64,000 nucleotides of DNA from Phycisphaerae bacterium (GTDB taxonomy: Bacteria; Planctomycetota; Phycisphaerae; UBA1845; PWPN01). The notes beneath the pieces are model-generated. The model did no database searches. It worked only from the letters and a program-made list of their open reading frames with translations, and was not told the DNA's origin. This document shows positions 1 to 44,180 of the stretch, one piece after another. Where the stretch lies: positions 1 through 64,000 of the forward strand of contig JAGNEZ010000003.1 of assembly GCA_018003015.1 (NCBI GenBank), written 5' to 3'. Both the position numbers and the translations under genes were made by a program. Within the stretch, counting starts at the first letter, position 1, and each line of letters begins with the position of its first letter.

Positions 1-1698
1 GTGCTGACGATCTCCGGCGGGGCCACCGTCTCGTACTGGGCGGGCCAGGCCCAGGCGACGTTGCCTACCTTCCAAGCGTCGGCCGCTGAACCGCTCGTTT
101 TCCAGGTGAACCGCGTCTCGCGCGACCAGAACCTGACGGCGACATCGACCCGAACAAGCGTCTTCATCACCGACGTGAATCGCGAGAACTTCGTGTTCTT
201 CGCGGACAACGTCATGGAAGGCGGCTGGACGTACAACAAGCGGGTGGGCGATGCGGACGACAATCCGACCGGGTCAGGGACCAACATCACCGCTTTCGAT
301 GCGCCCGAATTCAACGACGGGGGCAATCACCAGATGATGGTGATCGCCGATGGCGAAACCGCTCGGCTTTATCTAGATGGGGTGCTTGGTGCGGAGGTTC
401 ACTTCCCGCTGAGCAACCCGATCATGTTCGAGGTCGGCGCCTACGCCCGGGCGGTTGGCGACACGGTCGTCGGGCAGTTCGACAACGTCCAGATTCTCGG
501 CAGCAGCGCTTCCTGCGTTCTGATGACGCCGAACTCGATCGCGGCGAGTGAGGGCGATGCGCCGATCCCGGTGCTCGTGCAGATCCCGTCGGGCGCGAAC
601 GCGGCCACCGATGTGGTGGTGACGCTGACGTCGAGTGCCCCGGGCGTCGCGGCGCCGGCCGGTGCCACCGGCGGAGCGCTGAATGTGACGTTTGCCGCCG
701 GCGGGAGCACCGCCCAGCTCGTCGACATCCAGATCTTCGGCTCCGGCAACACCCGAATCATCGCCACGAACAACTTCGGGGCCTGCAACGGCGATCCGAT
801 TGAGGTCTACGTTCCCTCGGTTCTGGTCCAGGACGACTTCGAGGACGGCGTGCTCAACAACGCCGTGTGGCGGGTCGACCCGACGCCCTTCGAAGAGACC
901 GGCGTGGCCACGTTCACGTACCTGGAGCAGGACGGCGTCATGACGCTGGGTGGCGTGGTGGGTACGCCCTACTGGCCCGGCATTGCCCTGATGACCGTGC
1001 CGAAGTTCAACCCAACGGCCGAGAAGCCGGTCATCTTCGAGATCGACCGGGTCAGGGCCAGCGGCCTCCCCGCGGACACGTACCGAGTGCGGACCGGCGT
1101 CTGGGTCGCGACGCAGGATCGGACCAACTACGTCCTGTTCAGCGACGTGTATCTGGAGGGCGGGTGGGGCATCAACAGCACGACCGGGACGGGCAACCCG
1201 ACCGGCACGCCGGCCAACATCGCCGCATTCGACTGCTGTGGATTCCCGGATCTGGGCAACAACCGGATCCGGGTCGTCGTGGACGGCAGCAAGGTGTCGG
1301 TGTACCTGGACGGCGTGAAGGGCATGGACGTGCCCTTCCCGTTCGCTGACAACCTGATCCTCGGCTTCGCGACCTACGGTTGGGCGGCCAATGACGACGT
1401 CACCGGTGTGTTCGACAACGCACTCGTGCTCGGGGATCCGTCCAGCACCAGCGGGCTCTGCAATCCGAACGTCTTCGCCGATCTGGATAGCGATCTGGAC
1501 GTAGATCAGATTGACTTCGGCCAGATGCAGTTGTGTCTGACCAGCTGGAACGTCGCTGTCTCGAGCAAGTGCCTGTGCCTGGACCGTGACGGCGACAGCG
1601 ACGTCGACGAGCTGGACATGTTCGCATTCACGATGTGTTTCACAGGCCCCGCGATTCCGTTCGATCGGAACAACGTGCCTGAGGGCTGTGAACCCTGA
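1..1698 (+). CDS. Secreted LamG-like protein with C-terminal dockerin-like tail (5' truncated)
   Basis: The frame is open from the first base, so the N-terminus lies outside the window; 565 residues are visible. Two related blocks of about 160 residues (roughly 1-165 and 280-480) share the features 'FFADNVMEGGW'/'LFSDVYLEGGW', a Pro-Thr-Gly turn, 'LYLDGV'/'VYLDGV' and a closing 'FDN' strand. This is typical of concanavalin-like (LamG) beta sandwiches. A Thr/Val/Ala-rich beta domain of about 100 residues separates them. The last 75 residues hold two calcium-loop modules, 'DLDSDLDVDQIDF' and 'DRDGDSDVDELDM', each followed by a cysteine pair. It is presumably an exported surface or extracellular protein; ligand and enzymatic activity are unknown. 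A perfect hairpin follows the stop codon. Confidence 0.8.
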   Translation: MLTISGGATVSYWAGQAQATLPTFQASAAEPLVFQVNRVSRDQNLTATSTRTSVFITDVNRENFVFFADNVMEGGWTYNKRVGDADDNPTGSGTNITAFDAPEFNDGGNHQMMVIADGETARLYLDGVLGAEVHFPLSNPIMFEVGAYARAVGDTVVGQFDNVQILGSSASCVLMTPNSIAASEGDAPIPVLVQIPSGANAATDVVVTLTSSAPGVAAPAGATGGALNVTFAAGGSTAQLVDIQIFGSGNTRIIATNNFGACNGDPIEVYVPSVLVQDDFEDGVLNNAVWRVDPTPFEETGVATFTYLEQDGVMTLGGVVGTPYWPGIALMTVPKFNPTAEKPVIFEIDRVRASGLPADTYRVRTGVWVATQDRTNYVLFSDVYLEGGWGINSTTGTGNPTGTPANIAAFDCCGFPDLGNNRIRVVVDGSKVSVYLDGVKGMDVPFPFADNLILGFATYGWAANDDVTGVFDNALVLGDPSSTSGLCNPNVFADLDSDLDVDQIDFGQMQLCLTSWNVAVSSKCLCLDRDGDSDVDELDMFAFTMCFTGPAIPFDRNNVPEGCEP

Positions 1699-1821: not shown

Positions 1822-2274
1822 ATGGGGGAGGGGGATGAGTCCAACAAATGCGCGATCTGTTTGCCCTCGGCTCAGGCGACGGGGCCGGACATATCCCAGG
1901 ACGATCCGCCCTGCGAGGATGCCAAGCTTGACCCAGATGATGATGTCGATCAGTCTGATTCTGGCTTCTTTCAGTGCTGCTACAGCGGCATGGGTATGCT
2001 CGTCGATTCGAATTGCATGGACCGAGCGTATTCCGACGCTTGTTCCTCCCGAAAACTCCGTGAGCGTTGGCTCGACATTTCCCCAACGGCCGTCGCCGGC
2101 AGACCAACCAGATCGGACGCGCCGGTGCCCGGGTCCGATTATGATGCTGCAGACTCCTCTGCCCTGAAGTTGTCAGCAGAGATGCGATCCGGCGACTGGA
2201 CCACTACGACGTTCACCGAGGGCCTTCGAAGTGCTCGCCAATCACTTCATTGGAGGTTCTCTGCGCTTACCTAA
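1822..2274 (+). pseudogene. Remnant of a dockerin-tail protein
   Basis: One open frame contains a single recognisable module around 1921-2015: 'LDPDDDVDQSDSGFFQCCYSG', then Cys 11 residues after the 'CYSG' Cys. This matches the dockerin-like tails of the intact neighbours, for example 'DTDQDVDQADFGFFQACWSG'. Everything before and after it is low-quality sequence: there is no signal peptide, no good ribosome binding site, no second calcium loop, and the frame runs about 250 bases beyond the tail without a recognisable fold. I read it as the decayed 3' end of a duplicated gene. A short expressed protein cannot be excluded. Confidence 0.45.
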
Positions 2275-10283: not shown

Positions 10284-12977
10284 ATGAGCAAGTGCACTCG
10301 TGCGGTAATGGTCGCCCTCCTGGCGACTTCGCCCCTAATGGCAGCCTCCACGCTATTCCAGGAGGACTTCGAGACCGGCCCGGTCGGCGCCTACGTGGTC
10401 GGAATTAACGGGTGGACAGGCACGGCCTACCTCAAGTACTCGGACACCGTCATCGACCAGGGGCTGTCGGCCGGCAGCGGGTACGACGGTTCCGTCGGCG
10501 ACGCCTGGGTCACCATGAACAAGACGTTCACCAATACCGTGACTCCGGGCGAGCAGCTGGTGTGGAGCGCCACCCTGTGGTCTCACAACGCCGGCGGCAG
10601 CTATGCCCACATCGAACTCCACCAGTCGGGCACCGTCGGTACGGTCGGTGTCATGCAAGTCTACACCGGATACGGGACTCTCGACTTCGCCATGTTCGAC
10701 CTCGGCGGTACCCAACTGCTCAACGCACGGGTACCGCAGCTCTTGGTTCCGGTGGACGTCAAGGTCGTCCTGAGCGAATCACCTTACCGGACCGACTGCT
10801 ACTACCGGCAGCATGGCACTGCAGAATGGACCTGGGTCACCGGCGTCGACCTCGGCTTGCCTCTGGCCAGCTACGACAATGTGACCGTCTACGGCCACAA
10901 CTACGACAGCGGCGAGGGCAACGGACAAACCGATTCGATTCTCCTGGTCGCGGAGTCAAGCCCTCCGGGCAAGGCCAGCACGCCCCTTCCGGAGGACGGA
11001 TCCGCCGGCGTGGCGGTCAACTTCTCGCTGAGCTGGACGCCCGGCGGCGGCCAGACGACGCAGAAGGTGTACTTCGGCACGACCAATCCCCCACCGTTTG
11101 TGGCCAGCCAGGTCGACAGCACCTACACGCCGCCAACCCTGGCCGCGAGCACAACCTACTACTGGCGCATCGACGAGGCGAATAATGCCGGAACAACGAC
11201 CGGTGACGTCTGGAGCTTTACCACCCAGGGACCGTGGTCCAGCCCGGACGTGCTATTCGAGGAGTACTTCGAAGGCGGTACGCCAGGCGGCTACGTCGCG
11301 GGTACCAACGGCTGGATGGGAACTCGCTTCGCCAAGTACTACGACACGGCAACCGACCAGGGCTTGGCGGCCGCACTCCTTTACGATGTCAACTGTGCTT
11401 CTTCCTGGCCGTCAATGACCAAGGCATTCGCCAATAGCCTGCACGCCGGCGCCTGGCTCGAATGGAACGCCACGATGGCCGTCGGCAATACCTACGGCGA
11501 TTACGCTCACCTGGAGCTCCGCCAGACGGGCTCATCGGGCGAGCAGGACGTGATGCAGGTCTTCATGGGCTACGGGACATTGGACTTCCGCCTGTTCGGC
11601 CAGGAAGTCAATCCCCTCATCTCGGGTCGGATCGGTCAGCCGTCTGTCGCGATCGATGTCAAGGTCACCATGGTCGAAGATCCCTATCGCACCGACTGCT
11701 ACTACCGGCCCCATGGCGAAACCGACTGGACCTGGGTCGCGGGCGATAACCTTGGTCTGCCCCTGGCCAGCTACAGCCGCGTGACCGTGATCGGCCACAA
11801 CGCCGAGGTCGCCACGGGCAGCGGCGTGGACTCGATCGTTCTGAGAGAATCCACGGCGCTGGGCAAGGCGGCCAACCCCTGGCCGTCGGACAGCGCTCTG
11901 GGCGTGCCGGTTTCACCGGAACTGACGTGGGCACCGGGGACCGCCGCGAAATCGCACGATATCTATTTCGGCACCACCAATCCGCCGCCGCTCATCAGGA
12001 ACCAGACTGACGCCACGTTCTCACCCGGCACGCTTGCTTCAGGAACGAAGTACTATTGGCGGGTCGATGAGGTGAGCGGTACCTGGAAGACGACCGGTGA
12101 TGTCTGGAGCTTCACCACGGCGGGCCCCTTACCGCCCCACATCATGCTGCAGGAGCAATTCGAGGACGGCACACTGGGCGACTACGTGGTGGGCACCAAC
12201 GGATGGACAGGCACGGCCTACCTGAAGTACACCGCCATTTCGATCGACGAAGGGTACTCGGCTGGCAACAGCCTCGATCTGACCGTGGGCACCGCCTGGC
12301 CTCGCATGAGCAAGTCCTTCACGAACACGACCGCCGGTCGCGAATACCTGGAGTTGACCGCGACGCTGCTGGCCGTGAATACATCCGGGGACTACGCCCA
12401 CGTGGAGATGCACCAGGCCGGCACCGTTGGAGAATTGGGCGTCGTCCAGATGATGACCGGCTATGGAACGCTGGATTTCCATCTCTTCTCCATGACCGGC
12501 AGCCATGACATCTCGATTCGCCCGCCTCAGATCTCCTCTCCCGTCGACGTCAAAGCGGTCTTGAAGGAAAACCCGTATCGCACCGACTTCTTCTATCGGG
12601 TACACGGAGCACAGGACTGGACCTATGCCGGCGGCGACGACTTCGGCCTGCCCTTGGCCAGCTATGACTCGATCGGCGTCTACGGCCACAACTATGGCGG
12701 CGCCGAATCGACGGGACAGATCGACTCCATCCTGCTTCGCAAGGTCACCGCATGCTCCGTGCCCTTCGCCGATGTGGATGGCGACAACGATGTCGACCAG
12801 GCGGACTTCGGTCGATTCCAGCTCTGCTACACGGGCGGCCCCAACTTCATTCCGGATGAGTGCGCTTGCCTGGACGTCACCGAGCCAAAGGGCAGCATCG
12901 ACAACTTCGATCTGGCGGTGTTCGCGAAGTGCGTGAGCGGACCAATGGTGCCGGCGAACGCGGACTGCGATCAGTAA
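10284..12977 (+). CDS. Secreted protein with three LamG-like repeats, FN3-like linkers and a dockerin-like tail
   Basis: 897 residues from ATG 10284 (GGAGAAGAG just upstream), with signal peptide 'VMVALLATSPLMAA'. Three copies of a ~200-residue beta domain start near residues 22, 328 and 625 and share 'NGWTGTAYLKY'/'NGWMGTRFAKY', 'GYGTLDF' and 'YRTDCYYR'. They are joined by two ~90-residue linkers, each with 'VYFGTTNPPP'/'IYFGTTNPPP', 'YYWRIDE' or 'YYWRVDE', and 'TGDVWSFTT', a fibronectin-III-like strand pattern common in planctomycete exoproteins. The C-terminus carries 'DVDGDNDVDQADF' and a second, degenerate loop, each with a C-x11-C pair. Probably a carbohydrate-binding or adhesive surface protein; last gene of the operon. 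Confidence 0.8.
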   Translation: MSKCTRAVMVALLATSPLMAASTLFQEDFETGPVGAYVVGINGWTGTAYLKYSDTVIDQGLSAGSGYDGSVGDAWVTMNKTFTNTVTPGEQLVWSATLWSHNAGGSYAHIELHQSGTVGTVGVMQVYTGYGTLDFAMFDLGGTQLLNARVPQLLVPVDVKVVLSESPYRTDCYYRQHGTAEWTWVTGVDLGLPLASYDNVTVYGHNYDSGEGNGQTDSILLVAESSPPGKASTPLPEDGSAGVAVNFSLSWTPGGGQTTQKVYFGTTNPPPFVASQVDSTYTPPTLAASTTYYWRIDEANNAGTTTGDVWSFTTQGPWSSPDVLFEEYFEGGTPGGYVAGTNGWMGTRFAKYYDTATDQGLAAALLYDVNCASSWPSMTKAFANSLHAGAWLEWNATMAVGNTYGDYAHLELRQTGSSGEQDVMQVFMGYGTLDFRLFGQEVNPLISGRIGQPSVAIDVKVTMVEDPYRTDCYYRPHGETDWTWVAGDNLGLPLASYSRVTVIGHNAEVATGSGVDSIVLRESTALGKAANPWPSDSALGVPVSPELTWAPGTAAKSHDIYFGTTNPPPLIRNQTDATFSPGTLASGTKYYWRVDEVSGTWKTTGDVWSFTTAGPLPPHIMLQEQFEDGTLGDYVVGTNGWTGTAYLKYTAISIDEGYSAGNSLDLTVGTAWPRMSKSFTNTTAGREYLELTATLLAVNTSGDYAHVEMHQAGTVGELGVVQMMTGYGTLDFHLFSMTGSHDISIRPPQISSPVDVKAVLKENPYRTDFFYRVHGAQDWTYAGGDDFGLPLASYDSIGVYGHNYGGAESTGQIDSILLRKVTACSVPFADVDGDNDVDQADFGRFQLCYTGGPNFIPDECACLDVTEPKGSIDNFDLAVFAKCVSGPMVPANADCDQ

Positions 12978-21197: not shown

Positions 21198-22391
21198 TTA
21201 CTTCCGGCGTGGCCGCGGAATCATCAGCCCGACACACAGCGTGAGGATCGACGCAGGCTCGGGAACGACCGGGTCGTAGGCCAGCATGATGCCGGCGGGC
21301 CCCCCGTAAGCGATCACCGGATTGTCAAAGCGATCAAAGGCCAAGGCGGCATCGCTGGTCGGATAGGCGTCCAGGATGAGTCCGCTCACCGGATCGTTGC
21401 CCCTGGGAAGCACAATATCACCCCAGCCCTCCCCGTTGTTGATCCGATAGTGAATCGAGCCGTCCATGCCCACATAGGCCACCGCCGGATGCCCCTGGCG
21501 GTCAAACACCAGATTGACCCGTTGACTGGCCACGGCGCTGGAGAGCTGCTCCGTCACCCAGGCCCCCAACTGGATATCGAACTGGCACACCAGGAGCGCA
21601 CTATCGGATTTGATCGCGAGGGCCACATTGTCATGGGGACCATATCCCAGCGAGAGTATCGCGTTCGACGAGGAAGGGAAGTTGGTGCCAAGGCTGGCTC
21701 CGTACCACGTTCCCTGGCCGGGCTCCTTGCTGGCAACAATGATCTCTGACCCGTTGCGGAAAGCAAGCCCAATGCGATCCTGACTGTCGACCGCGATAGT
21801 CGGTTTCTCCCCCGTCGGACGGATTTGGGTCCCCACCGTTACCTTGTCGACCAGATCCGTATTCCACCCCTGGCTGTCATAGGCGGACAGCACCAGGCCC
21901 TTCGTGGTGCCTACATTCCCCATGTACGCAACGACCGGCCGGTTGTTGGACTGATACGCGAAATCAGGCCCGCCACTGTAATAGAAATTCGACACGGCTG
22001 TGCCGACGCCGGAATGGGACCACCCATTGCGCGAGGACTGTGCAAACCTGACCTCGTAGGCGTTGCTGATCCACGTGACGCCGACGCGACCGTCCGGCCC
22101 GGCGTGCACCCGGGCCATGGTCGCGTTGCCGGATATGGAGCTCAGGGCGGTTTCCGACCATCCCGCGGGAGTCAGTGACGCCGCCTTGAATCCCCCCGCT
22201 CGATCGTAGAAGACCGTGGGCCAAGTGTCCCCGGTTCGCATCCCTAACGACACCAGGGGAGGAGAACTCACTCCGGAAGCAACTCTCTGGAAGTCCCAGG
22301 TGATGTGGGTGGCCAGCGCCGGGAAGGTCAAGGCCAGAATCACCAGGACCGAACCCGTGATCATCCTTCGACAAGCAAGGAACTTGGTCAT
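21198..22391 (-). CDS. PEP-CTERM exported propeller-like protein (copy B)
   Basis: 397 residues from ATG 22391; the start overlaps the previous gene's stop as ATGA. Signal peptide 'ITGSVLVILALTFPALA'. The body has repeated blade-like segments such as 'PTIAVDSQDRIGLAFRNGSE' and 'RVNLVFDRQGHPAVAYVGMD'. The C-terminus is 'VPEPASILTLCVGLM' plus 'RPRRK', a PEP-CTERM sorting signal (PEP motif, short helix, basic end) processed by an exosortase/archaeosortase, none of which is in the window. It is a close paralogue of the protein at 23920, of identical length. Function unknown; surface display is expected. Confidence 0.8.
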   Translation of the reverse strand: MTKFLACRRMITGSVLVILALTFPALATHITWDFQRVASGVSSPPLVSLGMRTGDTWPTVFYDRAGGFKAASLTPAGWSETALSSISGNATMARVHAGPDGRVGVTWISNAYEVRFAQSSRNGWSHSGVGTAVSNFYYSGGPDFAYQSNNRPVVAYMGNVGTTKGLVLSAYDSQGWNTDLVDKVTVGTQIRPTGEKPTIAVDSQDRIGLAFRNGSEIIVASKEPGQGTWYGASLGTNFPSSSNAILSLGYGPHDNVALAIKSDSALLVCQFDIQLGAWVTEQLSSAVASQRVNLVFDRQGHPAVAYVGMDGSIHYRINNGEGWGDIVLPRGNDPVSGLILDAYPTSDAALAFDRFDNPVIAYGGPAGIMLAYDPVVPEPASILTLCVGLMIPRPRRK

Positions 22392-23917
22392 GTGCGATGC
22401 ACTCCTTCTCGCCTGGAACCACAGCCCGGGTCCGCCGGCCGGTCGCTGCCACTCCAGCAGGCTTGGAAGAAACCGAAGTCGGCCTGGTCCACGTCCTGGT
22501 CCGTGTCGAAATCGGTTGAACCACAGGTGGCCTGCTCTTGCACGATGGCCGGCCCCGTGTAGCACGCGGTAAACCGCTGCAGATCACCCGCGTCGACGTC
22601 GCCGTCGCGATCGAAATCGCCAGGGATCAACGCCGGGCACCCGCGGGTCGAATCCATCACTGCTCCGGGAATGGTCAGCGGGCATGGATCGCATGCGTCG
22701 CCGGCGCCGTCACCGTCTGAGTCGTCCTGGTCGCGGTTGGAGACCGCCGGGCAGTTGTCGGACTCGTCGGGAATCCCATCACAATCGGTATCTCCGGCGA
22801 GGGGCACCGGAATCGCGGGACCGATGACGTGGAGCCGCTGCATCTCGTCGATGAAGGCCACTGCCCACCTGCCGTGCGTGTCGATCGCCAGACCGGGAGG
22901 GGTGAACCTCATGAAGCTGGTCGCCAGACGGCTCGAAAACCAGCCGGCGTCGTTCATGGCCAGATTTACTGACCAGTCATTTCTCCTGACATAGGCGATT
23001 CTGGTCCGCCCAGCCTGATCCAGTACCATTGCACTCGGGCCGAATGCAATATCACCGCCCGTGAGGACGGCCTGGTTCGTGGCACCCAAGGCGTGGAAGC
23101 GAACCACCGCAAGACCGGTCGACGAAGACCACGCCACCAACGGTGCGTCCACGGCATCGACGGCCAAGGAAAGACCGGTGGCTTGAGGGAGCGTACCGCC
23201 ACCGTAGCTACGACTGGTCCAGCCATCGGAAGACCGCGTCCATACTGTGATGTTCCGTGTCTGCGCGTCGTGCATGGCCACAACCACCCGATTCAGGCGG
23301 TCAACCGTCACCGCGACTCGGCTGCCGATCGCATTGGTCGAGACGGTGGTGGGAATCGGCTCGTTGGTCCACTTGCCGGTCCTGGGCTGGAATGAAGCCA
23401 GCCGGAGACTGGAAGACGTGCTGTAGACCATGAACGGATCGCCATATGGGCCCATCGCAAATCGCGCGTAACTACCCATAGCCGCCTGGGCAACCGGGGT
23501 GGAACTGACCCCCAGCAGCGGCCCTCCATTAAGGTAGTAGTACAGCCAATAGTCAGACCGGAGAAGGGCCACTGAAACCCCGCCGAACCGGTCGACCCCG
23601 ATCGAGGGGGCCGCGGTGAAACCATAATCGTGGATGACGGTCTTCGCGATACCGGTGCAAGAACACCGTACCATCCTGAGGATCGGCGTGTCCTCGCCGT
23701 GGTACACAACCACCAGGTCGCCGTTGCGATCGATGCCGATAGCAGGAATCGCCTGCGGATTCACTCTCTCCTCGATGACCAGATCAGGGAATGTGTCGTC
23801 GGCCCGCATGCGACCCGGATGGGCAAGGGAAACGAACAGGATACCTGCCGCAATCCAGCAGAGCCCTGACCGGCTGACATGCCTGGCGATTCGCTTTTGC
23901 CGTCCGGTGGTGAACAT
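22388..23917 (-). CDS. Exported propeller-like protein with thrombospondin-3-like and dockerin-like tail
   Basis: 509 residues from ATG 23917 (GGAGG upstream), with signal peptide 'GLCWIAAGILFVSLAHPGRM'. Residues ~50-375 carry blade-like repeats ('AIPAIGIDRNGDLVVVYHG', 'APSIGVDRFGGVSVALL', 'PPGLAIDTHGRWAVAFIDE'). Then come thrombospondin-3-type calcium loops ('DTDCDGIPDESDNCP', 'DSDGDGAGDACDPCP') and two dockerin-like modules ('DFDRDGDVDAGDL', 'DFDTDQDVDQADF'), each with a Cys pair. It is the middle gene of a three-gene operon, 2 bp after its upstream neighbour and overlapping its downstream neighbour by 4 bp. Extracellular, calcium-dependent; ligand unknown. Confidence 0.8.
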   Translation of the reverse strand: MFTTGRQKRIARHVSRSGLCWIAAGILFVSLAHPGRMRADDTFPDLVIEERVNPQAIPAIGIDRNGDLVVVYHGEDTPILRMVRCSCTGIAKTVIHDYGFTAAPSIGVDRFGGVSVALLRSDYWLYYYLNGGPLLGVSSTPVAQAAMGSYARFAMGPYGDPFMVYSTSSSLRLASFQPRTGKWTNEPIPTTVSTNAIGSRVAVTVDRLNRVVVAMHDAQTRNITVWTRSSDGWTSRSYGGGTLPQATGLSLAVDAVDAPLVAWSSSTGLAVVRFHALGATNQAVLTGGDIAFGPSAMVLDQAGRTRIAYVRRNDWSVNLAMNDAGWFSSRLATSFMRFTPPGLAIDTHGRWAVAFIDEMQRLHVIGPAIPVPLAGDTDCDGIPDESDNCPAVSNRDQDDSDGDGAGDACDPCPLTIPGAVMDSTRGCPALIPGDFDRDGDVDAGDLQRFTACYTGPAIVQEQATCGSTDFDTDQDVDQADFGFFQACWSGSDRPADPGCGSRREGVHRT

Positions 23918-23919
23918 GA

Positions 23920-25113
23920 TTACCTCCGGCGAGCACAAAGCACGACCAGGCCGAAAAGCCCCATCAGCAGGGACGCAGGCTCAGGAGTCACCACGGGGTC
24001 GTAGGCCAGGATGAGCCCGGCCGACCCCACGTACGCGATGACCGGATTGTCGAAGCGGTCAAACGCCAAGGCGGCGTCGGTTCCCACGACTGGATTCACC
24101 ACCAGCCCACTGGTCGGATCGGTCCCCAGCGGAAGTACGACATCCGTCCAGCCGTCACCACGGTTGACCATGTAGTGAATCACATCGTCACTGCCAGAGA
24201 AGGCCACCGCCGGATGCCCCTGGCTGTCAAAGGCCAGATTCACAGCCTGGCTGGCAACCGCCACCGACAGTTGTTCCGTCACCCAGGCCCCCGACTGGAT
24301 GTCAAAGTGGCTGACCCAGAGTAGATTGTTCGATTTGATCGCCATCGCGACGTGGTCGTTGGCACCGTAACCCAGCGAGAGCATCATGCTCGACGACGAC
24401 GGGAACGTGCTCCCAAGACTCGTACCGTACCACGACCCCTGGGCGAGGTCCTTCGTGGCAAAGATCACTTCGGAATTGGAGCGGAAGCCCAGGCCGATGC
24501 GATCCTGACTGTCGACGGCAATGGTCGGAAGATCTCCCCCGATTCGGACCGTCTGACTCACCGTCACCTTGTCGACCAGGTCCGTGTTCCAGCCCAGGCC
24601 GTCGTAAGCCGAAACCACCAGCCCGGCCTTGTTGCCCGACAAGCCTGTATACGTGACCACCGGCCGATCGTCGGACGTGTACGCGAAATCCGGTCCGCTC
24701 ACAGAACTCGAAGTCACCGCGGTGCCAACCTTCGACGCCTGCCAGCCGTATCGTGATGACTGAGCGAACAGCACTTCGCGACCGCCGTTGAGCCAAGCGA
24801 TGCCGACACGTCCGTCACTCCCGTCGCGCGCTCTCGCCGCCCTCACGAGGTTGTCGGCACTGGTGCCCAGAGCGGTTTCTGACCATCCGACCGGGGTGAG
24901 CGATGCGGCCGTGAACCCCGCTCGATTGTAGAACACCGTGGGCCAGGTGTCTCCCGTGCGCATGCCCAGGCTGACCATCGGCGGTGAGGGTGCCTGCGAA
25001 GACACCCTTTGGAAGTCCCAGGTGATGTTGGTGGCCAGTGCCGGTCCGGCCGGAACCCACATCCCGAGTACCGCGACCACCATCATCTTCGTACAAATCA
25101 GGGATGGCTTCAT
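23920..25113 (-). CDS. PEP-CTERM exported propeller-like protein (copy A)
   Basis: 397 residues from ATG 25113 (GGAGGAG upstream), with signal peptide 'MMVVAVLGMWVPAGPALA'. The body is colinear with the protein at 21198: both begin 'ITWDFQRV', share 'SLGMRTGDTWPTVFY', 'GWNTDLVDKVTV' and 'DAALAFDRFDNPVIAY', and end 'YDPVV-(T)PEPAS'. The tail 'TPEPASLLMGLFGLVVLCARRR' is a PEP-CTERM signal. First gene of the operon; a candidate promoter lies at 25269-25297. The duplication is old enough to have diverged by roughly a third by eye, without length change. Confidence 0.8.
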   Translation of the reverse strand: MKPSLICTKMMVVAVLGMWVPAGPALATNITWDFQRVSSQAPSPPMVSLGMRTGDTWPTVFYNRAGFTAASLTPVGWSETALGTSADNLVRAARARDGSDGRVGIAWLNGGREVLFAQSSRYGWQASKVGTAVTSSSVSGPDFAYTSDDRPVVTYTGLSGNKAGLVVSAYDGLGWNTDLVDKVTVSQTVRIGGDLPTIAVDSQDRIGLGFRSNSEVIFATKDLAQGSWYGTSLGSTFPSSSSMMLSLGYGANDHVAMAIKSNNLLWVSHFDIQSGAWVTEQLSVAVASQAVNLAFDSQGHPAVAFSGSDDVIHYMVNRGDGWTDVVLPLGTDPTSGLVVNPVVGTDAALAFDRFDNPVIAYVGSAGLILAYDPVVTPEPASLLMGLFGLVVLCARRR

Positions 25114-25268
25114 GGGGGAAATGCTCCTCCTCTCTCTACCGCCCAGCGCGCAACCGTGCGACGAGCCAAGGGGCTGTCCGGGAGGGGACCCGAACCCGCG
25201 TTTGCCGGGGCGATGCTCCACGACAAGCCACGACCCGATTCCGAGACAACTCCACCCAATCACCCCTG

Positions 25269-25297
25269 TTTTTACCCCCCTTGGCGGAAGAAGTCAA
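25269..25297 (-). promoter_or_regulatory. Candidate promoter of the PEP-CTERM/dockerin operon
   Basis: On the minus strand, TTGACT (25292-25297), a 17-bp spacer and TAAAAA (25269-25274). Transcription would begin near 25262, leaving a ~150-base leader before ATG 25113. Confidence 0.35.
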
Positions 25298-25406
25298 GCA
25301 GATTATGAACATGCGTCAGCCTGCGCGCCGCAGGGTTTTACAGTCACACAGCATCCCAACCCGGCAGCTCCCCAAGCCCACGCCGACCGAGTGGGCCCGG
25401 AACAGA

Positions 25407-28400
25407 TCAGGCCTTGAAGTACCTCGCTTCCGGATGGTGGGCAATAACAGCCGAGGTGGACTGCTCCGGATCCAGCTGAAACTCCTCGCTGAGGGTGATT
25501 CCGATATCCTTCGGCCCCAGCAATGGCCAGAGATGGGCCTGGTCTTCGAGGCTGGGGCAGGCGGGATAGCCAAAACTGAAACGGCTGCCCTGGTAGCCCT
25601 GCTGGAAGATCCGGCGAACCTCGCGAGCATCCCGCCCGGCGATGCCCAACTCCATGCGAACCTGCTTGTGGATGTACTCGGCCAGGGCCTCGGCGGTCTC
25701 GACACTCAGGCCGTGCAGGTGAAGGTAATCGCGGTAACGGTCCTCGGAAAACCACTGCCGAGCGACCTCGCCGGCCCGTCGGCCGGCGGTGACGATCGAT
25801 AGAGCGACCACGTCGAACTCGCCGCTGGACTTGGGTCGCCAGAAGTCGGAGAGGCACCAGAACGGCGCTCTTTTCTGGCGGGGGAAATCGAAACGGGCAA
25901 TGAGCCGTTCCCGGTCCTCGGGATCATAGACCCGAAGACCGTTGCCCTCGCTCTGGCAGGGCCAGTAACCGTAGATCGCCTTGGGCTCGAGAATCGCCTC
26001 CTGCTCGCACCGGGCCACCAGGTCGCGGTAGATCGGCCGAACCTCGGCGTCAATGTAGCGGTCAAACTCATCCTGCGAGCGGCCCTTTCTGCGGTAGTCC
26101 CACTGCACCTGGAAGAGCATGACCTCGTTCAGGTAAGCCAAGACCGCCTTGAGCGGAACCTTCTCGATCACCCGCCGGCCCCAGAACGGCGGCTTCGGAA
26201 TCGGTACGCTCGCGGAAACCCCACTCCTGGCGGGCACTTCGATCAACGTCTCCAACGCCGAAGTGACCCCGCCAACGGCCACAGCACGAAGGTGCACCGC
26301 CTCCACATCGGCTTCGGACATCTCGGCCGTATCCACCAACCGGACACCGGCCATCAGCTCGGGCAGCCTGCCCCCGCAGATCTTGGCCATGAGGTCCATC
26401 CCGGCGAACGCATCCCGGGCGTAGAAGAGCGGCCCCTTGTAGAGCGGCCGCAGATCCTGCTCCACGTACTTGCGAGTCAACGCGGCGCCGCCAAGGATGA
26501 CCGGCGGGGCCACCCCGCGCTCGTTGAGCACCAGCAGGTTGTCTCGCATGACCACGGTGCTCTTGACCAGCAGACCGGACATGCCGATGACGTCGGCCCG
26601 CTTCTCCTGCCAGGCGTGCACGATCGCATCAATGGGCTGCTTGATGCCCAGGTTGTACACGGTGTAACCGTTGTTGGTCAGGAGAATGTCCACCAGGTTC
26701 TTGCCGATGTCGTGAACGTCACCCTTGACCGTGGCCAGGACAATCGAACCCTTGCCGGTTTCGCCCGTCCGGTCCATGTGCGGCTCGAGATGGGCGACCG
26801 CGGCCTTCATCGTTTCCGCCGACTGGAGCACGAAGGGCAACTGCATCTGCCCGGAGCCAAACAGGTCGCCGACGACCTTCATGCCCGGCAGAAGAATCTC
26901 GTTGATGATCTCGAGCGGCTGGTGCGTCGCCCGGGCCTCGTCAAGATCGGTTTCCAGCCCCTTGCGGTCACCGTCAATCACTCTCTGCTTCAGCCGCTCC
27001 TCGACCGTGGTCGGGCGAGCGACGGCTTCCTGCTCCTCCGCTCGCTCACCGGTCAGGCGGCTGATCAGATCGGCCAGCGGATCGTAGCCAGGAGCGCGCT
27101 CGTCAAAAATCAGCTTCCGGGCGATCTCCCGAAACGCCTCGTCGATCTTGAAGAGCGGCTCGATCCCGGCGGCGTGAACGATGGCCGCGTCCAGCCCGGC
27201 CTCGCGAGCGTAATGCAGAAACACGCTGTTGAGCACGTGCCGGACCGCAGGCTTGACCCCGAAGCTGATGTTGCTGACCCCCAGGAGAATGTGGCACTCG
27301 GGCATCTCCCGCTTGATCCGGCGAATAGCCTCGAGCGTCTCCAGGCCCAGCCGGCGGTCGTCGTCGTTGCCCGTGCAGATGGTGAAAGTCAGCGGATCGA
27401 AGAGAATGTCGCTCGGCCTCATGCCGTACTTGCTGACCGCCAGGTCATACAGCCGGCGGGCGATGGCCACCTTCCGCTCGCAGGTCTTGGCCATGCCCTC
27501 CTCGTCGATCGTCAAGGCCACCACCGCAGCCCCATACTTGCGGCACAGCGGCAGAACCTGGGCACAGCGATGCTCACCATCCTCGAGGTTGATGCTGTTC
27601 ACCACGCACTTGCCGCCGGCTAGCTTCAGGGCGGTCTCGATCACCGCCGTCTCCGTCGAGTCGATCATCAGAGGAACCTGGACCTCGGTGGCGAAACGGC
27701 TGATCAGCCGGCTCATGTCCGCGTTCTCGTCCCGGCCGACGTAGGCGGCGCACACGTCGATCATGTGGCAGCCGCTCCTGACCTGGTCGCGGGCCATCTG
27801 GACCATGCCTTCGATGTCCTCCGCCGCGAGAAGCTCACGGAACTTCTTGGACCCGTTGGCATTGGTCCGCTCGCCCACGATCAGGAAGCTGTTGTCTTGC
27901 CGGAAGGCAATCGATTGATACAGGCTGGATGCACCAGGCTCGAAACGCGGCTCACGCTTGACCGGAGGCCGATGACCGATGGCCTTCACGACCGCGGCCA
28001 GATGCTCGGGCGTCGTACCGCAGCAACCGCCAACCAGGTTCACCCCATCGGCCTCGACAAACTCCTTAAGCCAGCGGGCCAGCTCCTCCGGGGTCAGCGG
28101 ATACACCGGCTTGCCGCCGACCACCTGGGGCAGACCGGCGTTGGGCACCACACTCAGCTTCCGCGTGCAGTATTCGCTCAGATAGCGTATGTGCTCGCTC
28201 ATCTCCTGCGGACCCGTGGCGCAGTTCAGGCCGATGACCTCGATCTGAGGATAAGCCTCGAGCGTGGTCACCGCCGCGGCGATGTCGGTGCCCACCAGCA
28301 TGGTGCCAGTCGTCTCGATCGTGATCTGGACCATGATCGGCACCCGCCGCCCGCACTCCCCGAATACCTGCTCGGCGGCGGCCAGACCGGCTTTGACCTG

Positions 28401-29090: not shown

Positions 29091-30566
29091 GTGACTCGAA
29101 CGTGGGTCATCATCATGACCATGGTGCTCGCACCCGGGTGCACACCGGCCCGAGGTGAATGGACCACCCTCCTCTACGGCGACCACGCCTTCGTCGCGAA
29201 CTCGGAGACACTCTTTGCCCCTGAATCCAGTGGAGTGGTCGCCAGCCGCACGAATCCCTGCGTCTACTGGACTCACAACGACGCCGGGTCGGCACAACCC
29301 CTGGTCTGGGCATTCCGCCTCGCTCCCGAAGATAAGGCCGCCCGCATCGCCAAACACCTCGGACGCGTCGAACTGACCAGAGCCAGTAATCACGACTGGG
29401 AAGACATCGCCAGCGGACCCGACGGAACCATCTACATCTTCGATGGCGGCGACAACCCACCCTGTGAACGAAGCGAAAAGCAAATCCACCGTTTCACCGA
29501 GCCGACCATCGACCCGGCCGGCTCGCCCATCACCATGACCTGTGCCTTCGACTCGCTGCGCTTCGAGTATCCGAGTTCCGCTGCCCCCTCACTCCCCGCC
29601 GAAACGGACACCGATCGCTACGACGCCGAATGCCTCATGGTGCATCCCACCACCGGAGATATCTACATCGTCACCAAGCGAACCACGGACAAACGCGACA
29701 TCGCCCTGGTCTTCAAGCTGCCGGCCGCATCCATCGCCTGGAATAGCTCCAAAAACCATGTCCTCCAGTACCTGGCCGACCTGACACCCAAGGTGTCCAG
29801 CATCTTCACCACGATGGTCACGGGCGGCGACATCCATGCCGACGGCGGGCGGCTCATCATCCGTACCTACGCCTTCGCCTACGAGTTTGTCCTGCCGCCC
29901 AGCCAACCCTTCGACGCCATCTTCCAGCAAACACCGGAAACCTACAGCCTGCTCAGCGAGCTTCTGCCCGAGACTCTCCAGGGCGAGGCCATCTGCTACG
30001 GCTACTGCGACGGAAGCCTCATCACCACAACCGAGGCATCCGGCCAGTCCGTCTTCCGAATCTTCGCCACGAACTGGCTGATGGCTAACCTCCGAGCCGA
30101 AGCCATCACCAACACCACCGCTCGAATCTGCTGGGAAACCCCCCAGGCATACCCCTCCTCGGTGGACTATGGCACCACGACCTCCTATGGATCCACACTG
30201 ACCGATCCAAACCCCCGCACCAACCACGCCCTAACCTTGACCGGACTTGCCACCGACCAGACCTACTACTACCGGGGACGGTCCGATTCACTCACCTACC
30301 CAGCCGCCCATCAGGCGAACGCCTACGCGTTCCGCGCTCGCCTCCTCGTCCAAGCCGACTTCGATCACGACGGAGACGTCGATCTGGACGACTTCGCCCA
30401 CCTCCAGCGATGCCTCGAGGGACCGACCGTCATTCCCCAAGACCCGGACTGCAGCGACGCCAGGATGGACGGAGACGACGACGTGGATGCCGCCGACAGC
30501 CTGCTCCTCCGAGCCTGTCTCAGCGGCACAAACATCCCACCCGAACCGAATTGCCTCCACGAATAG
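29091..30566 (+). CDS. Exported propeller-like protein with dockerin-like tail
   Basis: 491 residues from GTG 29091, chosen because GGAG lies 8 bases upstream; ATG 29019 is an in-frame alternative without one. A hydrophobic export signal 'WVIIMTMVLAPGCTPARG' is present, with a possible lipobox Cys. The first ~330 residues have propeller-like features: 'VYWTHNDAGS', 'SNHDWEDIASGPDGTIYIFD', 'YDAECLMVHPTTGDIYIVTK'. A short FN3-like stretch ('TYYYRGRSD') follows. The tail has 'DFDHDGDVDLDDF' and 'RMDGDDDVDAADS', each with a C-x11/12-C pair. A perfect TATAAT (29015-29020) precedes it, but no good -35. It diverges from metH. Function unknown. Confidence 0.78.
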   Translation: MTRTWVIIMTMVLAPGCTPARGEWTTLLYGDHAFVANSETLFAPESSGVVASRTNPCVYWTHNDAGSAQPLVWAFRLAPEDKAARIAKHLGRVELTRASNHDWEDIASGPDGTIYIFDGGDNPPCERSEKQIHRFTEPTIDPAGSPITMTCAFDSLRFEYPSSAAPSLPAETDTDRYDAECLMVHPTTGDIYIVTKRTTDKRDIALVFKLPAASIAWNSSKNHVLQYLADLTPKVSSIFTTMVTGGDIHADGGRLIIRTYAFAYEFVLPPSQPFDAIFQQTPETYSLLSELLPETLQGEAICYGYCDGSLITTTEASGQSVFRIFATNWLMANLRAEAITNTTARICWETPQAYPSSVDYGTTTSYGSTLTDPNPRTNHALTLTGLATDQTYYYRGRSDSLTYPAAHQANAYAFRARLLVQADFDHDGDVDLDDFAHLQRCLEGPTVIPQDPDCSDARMDGDDDVDAADSLLLRACLSGTNIPPEPNCLHE

Positions 30567-35015: not shown

Positions 35016-36758
35016 GTGTCCAAGCTCGTCGCCAGCATGCAGGAAAAGGGGCTTCTCAACCCGGTGACCGCCGGGCGCGTTCAAGCCCTGGTCGCCGAGG
35101 GGACGCCGATCGAGGAAGCGGTTCTCGCCGCGGACGGCGTCAGCGAGGAGGCCTTGCTCCACTTCCTCGCTGACGCCTTCGATATCCCCTATATCGATTC
35201 CGAACAGCTCGAGCGCCGGCCACCCCCCAAGGAATTCCTCGCGGGCTTCCCCGCCAGACTCCTCCTCGGACACCGCATCCTGCCGATCGAGCAGCGCGAT
35301 GGGGTCACCCTCGTCGCAACCAGCCGCCTCAGCGACACCACCGCCCTCGACGAACTCCGCCTGGCCTGCGGGCACGATCTGGCCCTGGCTCTGGCACCCT
35401 CCGCCGAGATCGACCGCTGCCTGAAAAAGACCCTCGGCGTCGGGGCCGATACCCTCCAGAGCCTCACCGCCGATGCGGACAGCGTCCTTCAGGTCATCGA
35501 TACCGAGGAAGACGAGGACCTGGATCTCGCCAACGCCGCCCTCGATTCCTCAATCATCAAGTTCGTCAACCAGATCCTCACCGAGGCCGTTGATGCCCGG
35601 GCTACCGACGTCCACATCGAGCCCTTCGAGGAACAACTTCGCATCCGCTACCGGATCGACGGCGTGCTCCAGGAATCCAACGTGCCCGAGTCCGTCCGCC
35701 GGTTCCACGCCGCCATCGTGTCGCGCATCAAGATCCTCAGCCACCTCGACATCGCCGAGAAACGCCTGCCCCAGGACGGCCGGATCAAGCTCAAAATCTC
35801 CGGACGCGAAATCGATGTGCGCGTGTCGATCATCCCCATGATCCACGGCGAGGCAGTCGTACTCCGTATCTTGGACCGGGGCGACGCCATGCTGGGAACC
35901 GAACACCTGGGCATGGCCCTGCCCGACCGGAATCGTTTCGATCAGATCCTGGAGATGCCCCACGGCATCGTCCTGGTCACCGGCCCGACCGGATCGGGTA
36001 AGACCACCACCCTGTACGCCGCACTCTCCAAGATCAACGACATCGAACGTAAAATCATCACCGTCGAAGACCCCGTCGAGTATCAGCTCCGGGGCGTGAA
36101 CCAGATCCAGGTGTCCATCAAGACCGGCCTGACCTTCGCCGCGGGCCTGCGAGCCATCCTGCGACACGACCCGGACGTCGTGCTCGTGGGCGAAATCCGC
36201 GACCTCGAAACCGCCGAGATCGCCGTACAGGCCTCACTGACCGGCCACCTGGTCTTCTCCACCCTGCACACCAACGACGCCCCGGGCGCCGCCACCCGTC
36301 TGGTCGACATGGGCCTCGAACCCTATCTGGTCGCTTCCTCGCTCGAGGTCGTGGTCGCTCAGCGCCTCGTCCGCGTGATCTGCCAGCAGTGCAAGCAGAC
36401 CGTATCACCCGAGGAGACCGCCCAGGCCCGAATGCAATTCGGCACCCTGATCTCCGGCACACTCTACAAGGGCGCCGGATGCCGCCGCTGCCAGGGAACA
36501 GGCTTCCGCGGCCGCCAGGGCATCTTCGAGATGATGGCCATCAGTGACGACATCCGCTCACTCATCCTGCAACGCGCTCCTTCGCACGAACTCCGCAAAG
36601 TCGCCACGCACCAGGGCATGCGCAGCCTCCGCGACGACGGCTGGCGCATCGTCGCCGAAGGCCGCACCACCATCGATGAAGTCCTCCGCAACACCAAGGA
36701 CGAAGAGGCAACCATGATGGGCTTCACCACCGGCGCCGAAAGCGGGAGGCATGGCTAA
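35016..36758 (+). CDS. gspE: Type II secretion ATPase GspE (GspE/PilB family)
   Basis: 580 residues from GTG 35016, with AAAGGAG upstream. An N-terminal MshEN-like domain (~1-150) is followed by the 'ARATDVHIEPFEEQLRIRYR' domain and the motor: Walker A 'GPTGSGKTTTL' (~323), Asp box 'ITVEDPVEY', Walker B 'VVLVGEIRDLETAEIA' (~390) and His box 'HLVFSTLHTNDAPGAATRL'. The zinc module has CQQC (~456) and CRRC (~489). This cytoplasmic hexamer powers pseudopilus assembly. The stop overlaps the gspF start as TAATG. Confidence 0.96.
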   Translation: MSKLVASMQEKGLLNPVTAGRVQALVAEGTPIEEAVLAADGVSEEALLHFLADAFDIPYIDSEQLERRPPPKEFLAGFPARLLLGHRILPIEQRDGVTLVATSRLSDTTALDELRLACGHDLALALAPSAEIDRCLKKTLGVGADTLQSLTADADSVLQVIDTEEDEDLDLANAALDSSIIKFVNQILTEAVDARATDVHIEPFEEQLRIRYRIDGVLQESNVPESVRRFHAAIVSRIKILSHLDIAEKRLPQDGRIKLKISGREIDVRVSIIPMIHGEAVVLRILDRGDAMLGTEHLGMALPDRNRFDQILEMPHGIVLVTGPTGSGKTTTLYAALSKINDIERKIITVEDPVEYQLRGVNQIQVSIKTGLTFAAGLRAILRHDPDVVLVGEIRDLETAEIAVQASLTGHLVFSTLHTNDAPGAATRLVDMGLEPYLVASSLEVVVAQRLVRVICQQCKQTVSPEETAQARMQFGTLISGTLYKGAGCRRCQGTGFRGRQGIFEMMAISDDIRSLILQRAPSHELRKVATHQGMRSLRDDGWRIVAEGRTTIDEVLRNTKDEEATMMGFTTGAESGRHG

Positions 36759-37978
36759 TGGCCGTCTTCGCCTACACCGCGCTGGACCGGAAGGGCCAGC
36801 GACTGTCGGGGAACCTCCCGGCCGACAGCCGGGCCGCCGCCCTCGACCAGCTCTTGGGCAAGGGCCTCTCTCCTGTCAGCATCGATGAACAGCGGTCCGA
36901 GGCGGCCGCCGCCCGCGCCGAGACTCGCTCCACCTCCACCCGCGTGCCCCAGTCGGCGGTCGAGTCCTTCACCCGCGAACTGGCCAACCTGCTCGCCGGC
37001 GGACTGCCACTCTCGCGAGCCCTGCACCTGGTACGCCGCGAGGCCGCACACCCCGCCGCCAAGAACGTGTGGTCGCGAATCCACGACGACGTGGTCAGCG
37101 GAGCTTCCTTGGCCGACGCCCTGACCCGATGGCCGGCCGCCTTCTCCTCCGTGTACATCGCCATGATCCGGGCCGGAGAGGCGGGCGGCTTCCTCCATGT
37201 CGTCCTCCAGCAGATCGCCGATTTCCGCACCCACGAGCAGGAACTCAAGGGCAAGGTCAAGGCCGCCATGGTCTATCCCTGCGTGCTCGGCACCCTGGCC
37301 ACCGGCGTACTCATCTTCCTGATGACATACTTCATCCCCACCTTCTCGGGCATCTTCGGCGAGTTCGGCGGCAAGCTGCCTATGCTCACCCAGATCATCG
37401 TCGGAGCCAGCAGTTGGATCATGAAATACGGCCTCGTCGTGGCCGTCGGCGTGGTTCTGTTCGTCGTGGCGATGAAACGCCTGGCCGCCAGTGAGGCGGG
37501 CCAGCGCTTCCTGGAACGCGTCAAGCTGGGAACACCACTCGTCGGCAAGGTCGCCGCCCGGTTTGCACTGGTGCGGTTCTGCCGCATGCTGGGTACACTG
37601 GCCGGCGCGGGCGTCCCCCTCGTCGCCTCACTGCGGGTCGCCAAGGAGGCCCTGGGCAACCGGACACTGTCCGACGCCATCGCCCAGGCGACCGAGGAAG
37701 TGCAGCGCGGGGCACCTCTGAGCCGCAGCCTGGCCAACACCCCCCAACTGTTCCCGCCCTCGGTCATCGAGATGATCGCGGTCGCCGAGGAAACCGGGCG
37801 GATGGACAAGGAACTGGTCCGCATCTCGATCGCCTATGAAACCGACCTGGACCGCAACCTGCGCATGCTGGTGGCCCTGGCCGAACCGGCTCTGCTGTTC
37901 ATCATGGCTTCGCTGATCGGCACGGTGGTGGTCGGCATGCTGCTGCCGATCTTCAGCCTGCAGGATTTGATCCATTGA
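36758..37978 (+). CDS. gspF: Type II secretion inner-membrane platform protein GspF
   Basis: 406 residues, the usual length. Two repeats of the T2SSF domain: 'FTRELANLLAGGLPLSRALH' then 'AAMVYPCVLGTLATGVLIFL', and 'FCRMLGTLAGAGVPLVASLR' then 'LVALAEPALLFIMASLIGTV'. Three membrane segments. It couples GspE to the pseudopilus. Confidence 0.95.
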   Translation: MAVFAYTALDRKGQRLSGNLPADSRAAALDQLLGKGLSPVSIDEQRSEAAAARAETRSTSTRVPQSAVESFTRELANLLAGGLPLSRALHLVRREAAHPAAKNVWSRIHDDVVSGASLADALTRWPAAFSSVYIAMIRAGEAGGFLHVVLQQIADFRTHEQELKGKVKAAMVYPCVLGTLATGVLIFLMTYFIPTFSGIFGEFGGKLPMLTQIIVGASSWIMKYGLVVAVGVVLFVVAMKRLAASEAGQRFLERVKLGTPLVGKVAARFALVRFCRMLGTLAGAGVPLVASLRVAKEALGNRTLSDAIAQATEEVQRGAPLSRSLANTPQLFPPSVIEMIAVAEETGRMDKELVRISIAYETDLDRNLRMLVALAEPALLFIMASLIGTVVVGMLLPIFSLQDLIH

Positions 37979-38005
37979 GACAAAGGGATTCTGAGGGTAC
38001 TGCAC

Positions 38006-38455
38006 ATGAGAACAACGTATCACCTGAACGGACCAAGGCATTCGGCCGGCCGGCACGCGGCCAGGGCATTCACCCTGGTCGAACTGCTGCTTGTGCTGGT
38101 GATCCTCGCGGTCCTGGCCATGGTCGTCGTCCCGAAGTTCACCGGCCGATCCGAACAGGCCCGCGTCACCGCCGCCAGAACCGACATCGCCAACCTGGAA
38201 ACGGCGCTCGACGCCTTCGAGGTGGACTGCGGCCGGTTCCCCACCTCGGAGGAAGGGCTCCGCGTGCTGCTCGAGCCTCCCGCGGGCGTTCAGAACTGGC
38301 GCGGCCCGTACATCAAACGCCAAATGCCCACCGACCCGTGGGGCAATCCCTATGTGTACCGGTACCCCGGCGCCCACAACCAGGGCAGCTACGACCTCTG
38401 CTCGGCCGGACCCGACGGGCGCGAGGGCGGCGATAACGATATCTCCAACTGGTAG
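38006..38455 (+). CDS. gspG: Major pseudopilin GspG
   Basis: 149 residues. The prepilin motif is 'AFTLVELLLVLVILAVLAM' with Glu at +5 and Ala, not Gly, at -1. The globular part is diagnostic for GspG: 'ALDAFEVDCGRFPTSEEGL', 'WRGPYIKRQMPTDPWGNPYV' and the calcium loop 'SAGPDGREGGDNDISNW' at the C-terminus. It forms the pseudopilus shaft after cleavage by a prepilin peptidase, which is not encoded in the window. Confidence 0.95.
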   Translation: MRTTYHLNGPRHSAGRHAARAFTLVELLLVLVILAVLAMVVVPKFTGRSEQARVTAARTDIANLETALDAFEVDCGRFPTSEEGLRVLLEPPAGVQNWRGPYIKRQMPTDPWGNPYVYRYPGAHNQGSYDLCSAGPDGREGGDNDISNW

Positions 38456-38472
38456 CAGCACGGGAATCGATC

Positions 38473-38964
38473 ATGACGCGTCGCAGACCCCCTCGTGGCT
38501 TCACCCTTCTCGAACTGGTCCTGGTGATGATGATCGTATGCATCACCCTGGCCATGGCCGCTCCATCCCTGCGCGGCTGGAGCAAAGGGTCGCGACTCCA
38601 CGACGAGGTCGACGCGTTCGTCGCCGTCACCCGCCTGGCCCGGACCCAGGCGGTCACCACCAGCAAGCCCCACCGCCTGTTCATCGATCCGGCAACCGCC
38701 ACCTACCAGCTCAGGGTCCAGGAAGGCGAGGAGTTCATCCCCCTCGAGTCCGGCTTCGGTCGCCCGTTCGAACTGCCTCAGGGCTATCGCATCGAGCTGC
38801 GCACCACCCCTGAATCCGCCGAGAGCTTCATCCCCTTCTACCCGACGGGACGCACCCAGCCGGCCCAGGTGCGGATCACCTCCGAACTCGGCGAAATGGT
38901 GGACATCCAATGCGCCTCCCCGGCGGAAAGCTTCGAGATCCTTCTGGGAGGGGCAGTGCCATGA
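38473..38964 (+). CDS. gspH: Minor pseudopilin, GspH-like
   Basis: 163 residues. 'RGFTLLELVLVMMIVCITLA' is a canonical prepilin signal with Gly at -1. It is followed by 'APSLRGWSKGSRLHDEVDAF', then 'TRLARTQAVTTSKPHRLFID', as in the GspH/FimT fold. Predicted near the pseudopilus tip. The stop overlaps the next start by 4 bp. Confidence 0.85.
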   Translation: MTRRRPPRGFTLLELVLVMMIVCITLAMAAPSLRGWSKGSRLHDEVDAFVAVTRLARTQAVTTSKPHRLFIDPATATYQLRVQEGEEFIPLESGFGRPFELPQGYRIELRTTPESAESFIPFYPTGRTQPAQVRITSELGEMVDIQCASPAESFEILLGGAVP

Positions 38965-39452
38965 GAGCCGTCCGCCATAACCACACCCGGCGCGGCAGAC
39001 TCCCGGCAACGAATCGCTGGGCCTTCACCCTCGCCGAGGTCCTGGCCACCCTCATGCTGGTGGGCATTGTCCTCCCCGTGGTCATGCGCGGAATCTCGGT
39101 CGCCCTGGCGGCCGCATCGCATGCCCGCTATCTCGCCCAGGCGACGTCCCTCGGCGAAGCCAAGCTGACCGAGTTGGTGACCACCGGTGACTGGCTCCTG
39201 GCTCAGACCAGCGGCGATTTCGGCCTGGAGTGGCCACAGTACCGCTGGTCCTGCCAGAACTTCACCCGCGACTTCAGCATGGACGAGCTCGTCCTCCGCG
39301 TGACCTGGACCGAGCGAGGCCAGGAACGAACCCTCGATCTGGCCACCTTGACCTTCGACACCGGCAGCCTGGCCGGCATAACCGATGAAACCGGCACGAG
39401 TGGCTCAACGGGTACCAGCGGCACCGGCGGTTCCGGCGGAGCACGACCATGA
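38961..39452 (+). CDS. gspI: Minor pseudopilin, GspI-like
   Basis: 163 residues. The prepilin signal is 'AFTLAEVLATLMLVGIVLP' after a basic leader (Ala at -1). 'AQATSLGEAKLTELVTTGDW' and 'WTERGQERTLDLATL' match the GspI/PulI pattern of a small minor pseudopilin. The C-terminus is a Gly/Ser/Thr-rich tail. Position between GspH- and GspJ-like genes supports the call. Overlaps by 4 bp at both ends. Confidence 0.78.
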   Translation: MRAVRHNHTRRGRLPATNRWAFTLAEVLATLMLVGIVLPVVMRGISVALAAASHARYLAQATSLGEAKLTELVTTGDWLLAQTSGDFGLEWPQYRWSCQNFTRDFSMDELVLRVTWTERGQERTLDLATLTFDTGSLAGITDETGTSGSTGTSGTGGSGGARP

Positions 39453-42929: not shown

Positions 42930-42934
42930 ATCCT

Positions 42935-44097: not shown

Positions 44098-44180
44098 CCA
44101 GGAATCACCCCAGTTGCGTGCACTTCGCCATGCCCGGCACGCCGCCGATGGATCTGCGAACCACGCAAGAGGAGCCGAAC

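Follow-up and report, generated by a model that had tools for sequence, protein, structure and literature searches.

The window, the stretch of 64,000 nucleotides analysed here (positions 1 to 64,000 of contig JAGNEZ010000003.1 from a Phycisphaerae bacterium), encodes four proteins that end in a small module with paired cysteines and calcium loops, together with the remnant of a further copy. The carrier protein at 10284..12977 (+) has a signal peptide-like start (MSKCTRAVMVALLATSPLMA), followed by three repeated units with fibronectin-like linkers, and terminates in a six-cysteine module at 12750..12968 (+) with two F-hand calcium loops, the second of which is degenerate (TEPKGSIDNFD). Within this module the C1-C2 pair lies at 12825/12861, the C3-C4 pair at 12930/12966 and a third pair at 12753/12867, and the final cysteine is found two residues before the stop codon. 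Another six-cysteine module, in which the C3-C4 spacing is 16 residues, occupies 1456..1689 (+) at the C terminus of a protein (1..1698, +) whose 5' end lies beyond the window and which contains weak concanavalin/laminin-G-like domains. The remaining two modules have four cysteines and are also C-terminal. One is located at 22421..22627 (-), as seen from translation, profile and an AlphaFold2 model, in a carrier (22388..23917, -) with a signal peptide, a repeat domain and a thrombospondin type 3 repeat. The other is at 30351..30554 (+), from translation, profile and exact mapping, in a carrier (29091..30566, +) with a purple-acid-phosphatase-N-like domain; this protein has a possible GTG start at 29091 with a hydrophobic N terminus, and the longer open frame ending at 30566 overlaps an antisense frame. 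The remnant, at 1912..2016 (+), represents a second half-module (C2, loop, C3, C4) by translation and mapping, the first half of which was looked for in all frames and not found.

Translations and exact mapping place all four modules and the remnant where the original prediction, made from the DNA letters alone, had put them. The cysteine spacings that it listed are likewise exact: counted on the translated sequences as the residues between both cysteines of one pair, they are 11 and 11 in the protein ending at 12977, 11 and 16 in that ending at 1698, 12 and 11 in that ending at 22388 (minus), 12 and 11 in that ending at 30566, and 11 in the remnant. Missing from that list was the third pair, which is present in two of the four window copies (those ending at 12977 and 1698) and involves a cysteine before loop 1 and a cysteine two residues before loop 2.

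What kind of module is this? It is very probably a homologue of the dockerins that carries predicted disulfides. The module profile matches solved type I dockerins in the PDB (2vn6 at E 1e-4, 1daq and others), and AlphaFold2 models the 22421-22627 module with a pLDDT of 94.7 and a pTM of 0.82 and the 12750-12968 module with a pLDDT of 93.8. The 22 best Foldseek matches are all dockerin-containing entries, none at E<=0.001 and the best at E 0.15, with the greatest fold similarity to 2y3n (TM 0.62/0.77). As in the type I dockerins (PF00404), two calcium loops are present with their helices, and a conserved residue is found at recognition position 17. Each of the two 12-residue F-hand loops leads into a helix, modelled at 17-26 and 52-61 in the 22421-22627 module, and the set of calcium ligands is complete in 127/129 copies for loop 1 and 105/129 for loop 2. 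Unlike the modules described here, the classical type I dockerin is without such cysteine pairs and normally has a cohesin partner. When the isolated window modules are set against the PF00404 cut-off of 22.9 bits, P0003 falls above it (24.4) and P0005 (19.9), P0001 (11.2) and P0002 (9.9) fall below; 13 of 59 carriers match PF00404 at E<0.001. Plain dockerins devoid of the cysteines also occur in the window's own genome, further off in profile space.

The nearest curated family is the GC-type dockerin NF041540 (hhalign 96.8%, E 2e-10), which is similarly a C-terminal double F-hand with cysteines and reaches very high copy numbers in genomes of the same class. Its plan differs, however, in having two cysteines only, one just before loop 1 and one in a terminal G-C, with none at the helix ends, whereas in the window-type module the terminal cysteine lies about 12 residues past the helix-end cysteine rather than in a G-C that immediately follows helix 2. 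At E<=1e-3 there are no NF041540 matches in the window's own genome, and the best window module reaches 18.1 bits against a threshold of 29 bits. The module is homologous to both Dockerin_1 and the GC-type dockerin, so that a merger with described families holds at the level of homology, but it is distinct from both; a demonstrated function for either of these families in this lineage was sought and none was found. The idea that NCBIfam or Pfam already lists the module under a different name was discarded, the only matches being weak ones to dockerin_GC and Dockerin_1, as was NF033662, an acidic double-disulfide repeat that is found at residues 276-304 of one carrier, ahead of its module. The module is real, large as a family, family-wide in distribution and outside the curated families searched. 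The GC-type dockerin itself is found in class-level relatives (L326-L330), with up to 223 candidate copies, of which 45 were scored and dozens match.

The scale of the family becomes apparent in the genome from which the window comes. A profile made from the four window copies finds at least 157 copies there, a lower bound given that 150 of 352 candidates were scored in an assembly of 6.86 Mb and 144 contigs, and most have E-values of 1e-12 to 1e-24. Chance or low-complexity aspartate-rich sequence is ruled out by these E-values and by the invariant cysteines. Around 110 of the own-genome loci were retrieved for analysis of the module. In 111 of 124 full-length copies with closed frames the module lies no more than 15 residues from the stop codon, and a signal peptide-like start is found on 77 of the 83 complete reading frames that carry it, bearing out the proposal that these are exported proteins with an overwhelmingly C-terminal module. 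The signal-peptide count is only supportive of export, as the predictor is crude and is also positive on 21 of 42 long window frames, a mixture of genuine exported genes and spurious frames. The module is similarly C-terminal in 69 of 70 copies from nine other genera. Some 10-14% of own-genome copies are internal or directly follow the signal peptide; examples are the lamin-tail-type proteins L033, L036, L075 and L100, where the module is near the mature N terminus and is without C4.

The carriers otherwise belong to unrelated families, including glycosidases, lipases, BNR proteins and an amidase, and across 59 whole carrier proteins the invariant columns are confined to the module. No choice-of-anchor family is significant among them, and a search for a plasmid match returned none. 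For one carrier domain, close homologues (53% identical) are without the module, which is therefore dispensable for that domain; such homologues fit an add-on tag, but they also fit a lineage-specific decoration. When carrier homologues were checked for other C-terminal tags most were found to be untagged, with one having a dockerin and a PEP-CTERM-like tail. A separate Cys-rich C-terminal domain of about 125 residues (YNCCL...CLCCYD...GxYxVEYCW) is common to L049, L050, L090 and L002, where it comes after the Cys module in the first three and after a non-Cys dockerin in L002.

The module occurs in each of the 13 genomes sampled from the window's family, at 10 to at least 94 copies per genome. 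It is also numerous in certain other families of the order, where most copies have just the C1-C2 pair. When 294 genomes were sampled evenly across the phylum, no score outside the own genome rose above about 47 bits. Those relatives that have names are for the most part Phycisphaerae, or metagenome assemblies of unclassified Planctomycetota.

The cysteines of the module behave as pairs. Among the aligned own-genome copies the cysteine columns are filled in 129/129, 128/129, 126/129 and 111/112 cases, and 132/132 copies have both C1 and C2. The C1-C2 pair is kept in 60 of 63 copies from other families of the same order, where C3 and C4 are both present in 14 copies and both missing from 42; one copy has C3 alone and six have C4 alone, these six being internal, open-ended or misaligned. 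This coupling has a p-value of 1.4e-8, and the third pair is coupled as well, with the upstream cysteine present in 41 of the 43 copies that have Cys43 (p 1e-14), although both values treat paralogues as independent and the short modules give no resolved tree. Indeed, a tree of the modules for the third pair and for the face rule described below has too few columns and provides one or two supported independent pairs. When C3 is absent the copies end soon after helix 2, with 39 of 48 stopping 3-7 residues past it and leaving no room for C4, and so C3 and the C-terminal extension appear to have arrived as one unit. Gained and lost in pairs, the cysteines point indirectly to the predicted disulfides, and the earlier view of a distinct cysteine-paired dockerin-like module is upheld. 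That view had also envisaged each calcium loop as locked by a disulfide. DSSP of the models assigns the first cysteine of each pair (C1, C3) to the very end of a loop helix and the second (C2, C4) to the short helix downstream of it; one disulfide per half is thus predicted, but it would clamp the end of the post-loop helix to the next helix or linker rather than the calcium loop itself.

The other conserved element is a face on the helices. In classical dockerins the cohesin contacts are residues 11, 12, 18 and 19 or, after a rotation of 180 degrees, residues 45, 46, 52 and 53 (PMC4728124); they are taken here as loop positions 10, 11, 17 and 18, with the first Asp as 1. Gln17 is found in at least one repeat of 128 of the 129 modules, but in both repeats of only 16, where 40 are expected (p 3e-20, a value that treats paralogues as independent), and the lone Gln17 can sit in either repeat. 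Positions 10, 13 and 14 show the same exclusion between repeats, while the control positions 2, 4, 6, 8, 16 and 21 show none. Every one of 72 modules from nine other genera has Gln17 in at least one repeat; there the exclusion recurs at positions 14 (Gly14) and 17, whereas 10 (Gln10) and 13 (Phe13) do not show it. Among the 14 best-scoring modules of other genomes of family f1 the one-face rule is not significant; it is seen again in a set from genome contigs, which is not relied on here as its loci were chosen by their face patterns. The GC-type dockerin, unlike the one-face pattern of this module, has the same DFLxFQ-like face on both repeats in its most typical copies. Such a conserved helix face suggests one shared binding partner.

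On balance the module is somewhat more likely than not to be a docking or retention tag. In this process the carrier proteins would exit through Sec, and outside the cytoplasm the cysteines would pair as C1-C2 and C3-C4, plus the extra pair where present. The module would then fold around calcium, stabilised by the metal and by one disulfide in each half, and the conserved face (Gln17, Gly14 and often Gln10) would bind one shared receptor at the cell surface or in the matrix. Owing to the pseudo-twofold axis the receptor could be bound in either of two orientations, as in classical dockerins, with the C-terminal module acting as an addressing tag on many unrelated exported proteins. More tentatively, this might extend to a family-wide surface-attachment system, in which a disulfide-clamped dockerin would tether up to about 150 or more unrelated secreted proteins per genome to a receptor other than a cohesin, through a single face located in either repeat and hence in one of two orientations; as a whole this broader scheme is possible but doubtful.

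Could the module instead be a passive C-terminal cap, a plug stabilised by calcium and disulfides that has no specific partner and guards secreted proteins against unfolding and against exoproteases? Disulfides and calcium together make for a very stable small domain, the carrier domains are unrelated and most of the genomes are without cohesin, all of which would suit a cap. A cap needs no conserved surface, however, and yet Gln17 is kept in 128 of 129 modules while neighbouring positions drift, a pattern that is partly replicated in other genera. Moreover, a purely structural role would be expected to fix the residue in one repeat, whereas recognition through a pseudo-twofold axis lets either repeat serve, and for this reason docking is preferred and the cap is thought rather unlikely. 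Confidence in this preference is moderate, because the one-face pattern could also result from founder effects in two old subfamilies.

One candidate partner for a docking module is a cohesin, with the modules binding the cohesins of a scaffold. A cohesin/dockerin 'planctosome' has been proposed for freshwater planctomycetes (PMC6461901), which resembles the present system in having non-cellulosomal dockerin modules on exported planctomycete proteins. It differs in that, as far as the accessible portion of that report goes, there are few components, a cohesin partner and no mention of disulfides, as compared to more than 150 clients and mostly no cohesin here. The window's own genome does encode a candidate for a scaffold-like protein, at 24807-28136 (minus; L009/L010) of contig C63, in which two cohesins flank a non-Cys dockerin and a Cys module forms the C terminus; further cohesin loci occur within the genus and in another two genomes from the family. 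The C63 cohesins might just as well, though, be partners of the non-Cys dockerins that this genome also encodes. Pfam cohesin is absent from most of the module-rich genomes of the order, with 9 of the 13 genomes from the window's family lacking it, along with four genomes of family f93 that have 72-123 copies of the module, so that cohesin is unsupported, and unlikely, as a general receptor, and a classical cohesin-dockerin assembly is improbable as the explanation.

The window also contains an operon resembling those for type II secretion (T2SS) and type IV pili at 35016-46679 (+), with GspE, F, J, K, a PilN-like protein and a secretin. The module had been suggested to tag proteins for this system, and it could be an export signal for the 35-47 kb operon or for its two paralogues, given that the operon is real and that folded domains can act as T2SS substrates. 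The window's own genome has three GspK genes, the two extra ones being on contig C15. A special link to the operon was not borne out: GspK is present in 58 of 61 genomes of the order regardless of the number of modules, from 0 to more than 94 and including those with 0-5 copies, and two family members without a GspK match, one of them only 55% complete, still hold 10 and 71 copies. The T2SS is so nearly universal in the order that co-occurrence is uninformative, and an export-signal role is highly improbable.

The preferred role of docking or retention would be of broader consequence. How planctomycetes hold their hundreds of exported proteins at the surface is largely unsettled, and one tag on more than 150 proteins of a single genome offers a way in, since one pull-down or localisation test could be used to seek the receptor. 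The one-face-per-module pattern also bears upon why dockerins have two binding modes, and a natural dockerin that is apparently stabilised by disulfides may serve as a robust docking tag.

A comparable arrangement is found in PEP-CTERM (PF07589), which is also a C-terminal tag on unrelated exported proteins and is present in 43 copies in the window's own genome. PEP-CTERM consists of a transmembrane helix and a basic tail and is processed by exosortase; the Cys module differs in having neither helix nor tail of this kind. PEP-CTERM signals occur in the window at 23923-23988 (-) and 59698-59769 (-). The two C-terminal tag systems coexist, once on adjacent, weakly similar genes (22388-23938 and 23920-25263), where the carrier at 22388..23917 (-) matches its PEP-CTERM neighbour at 23920-25263 with a BLASTP E-value of 2e-4.
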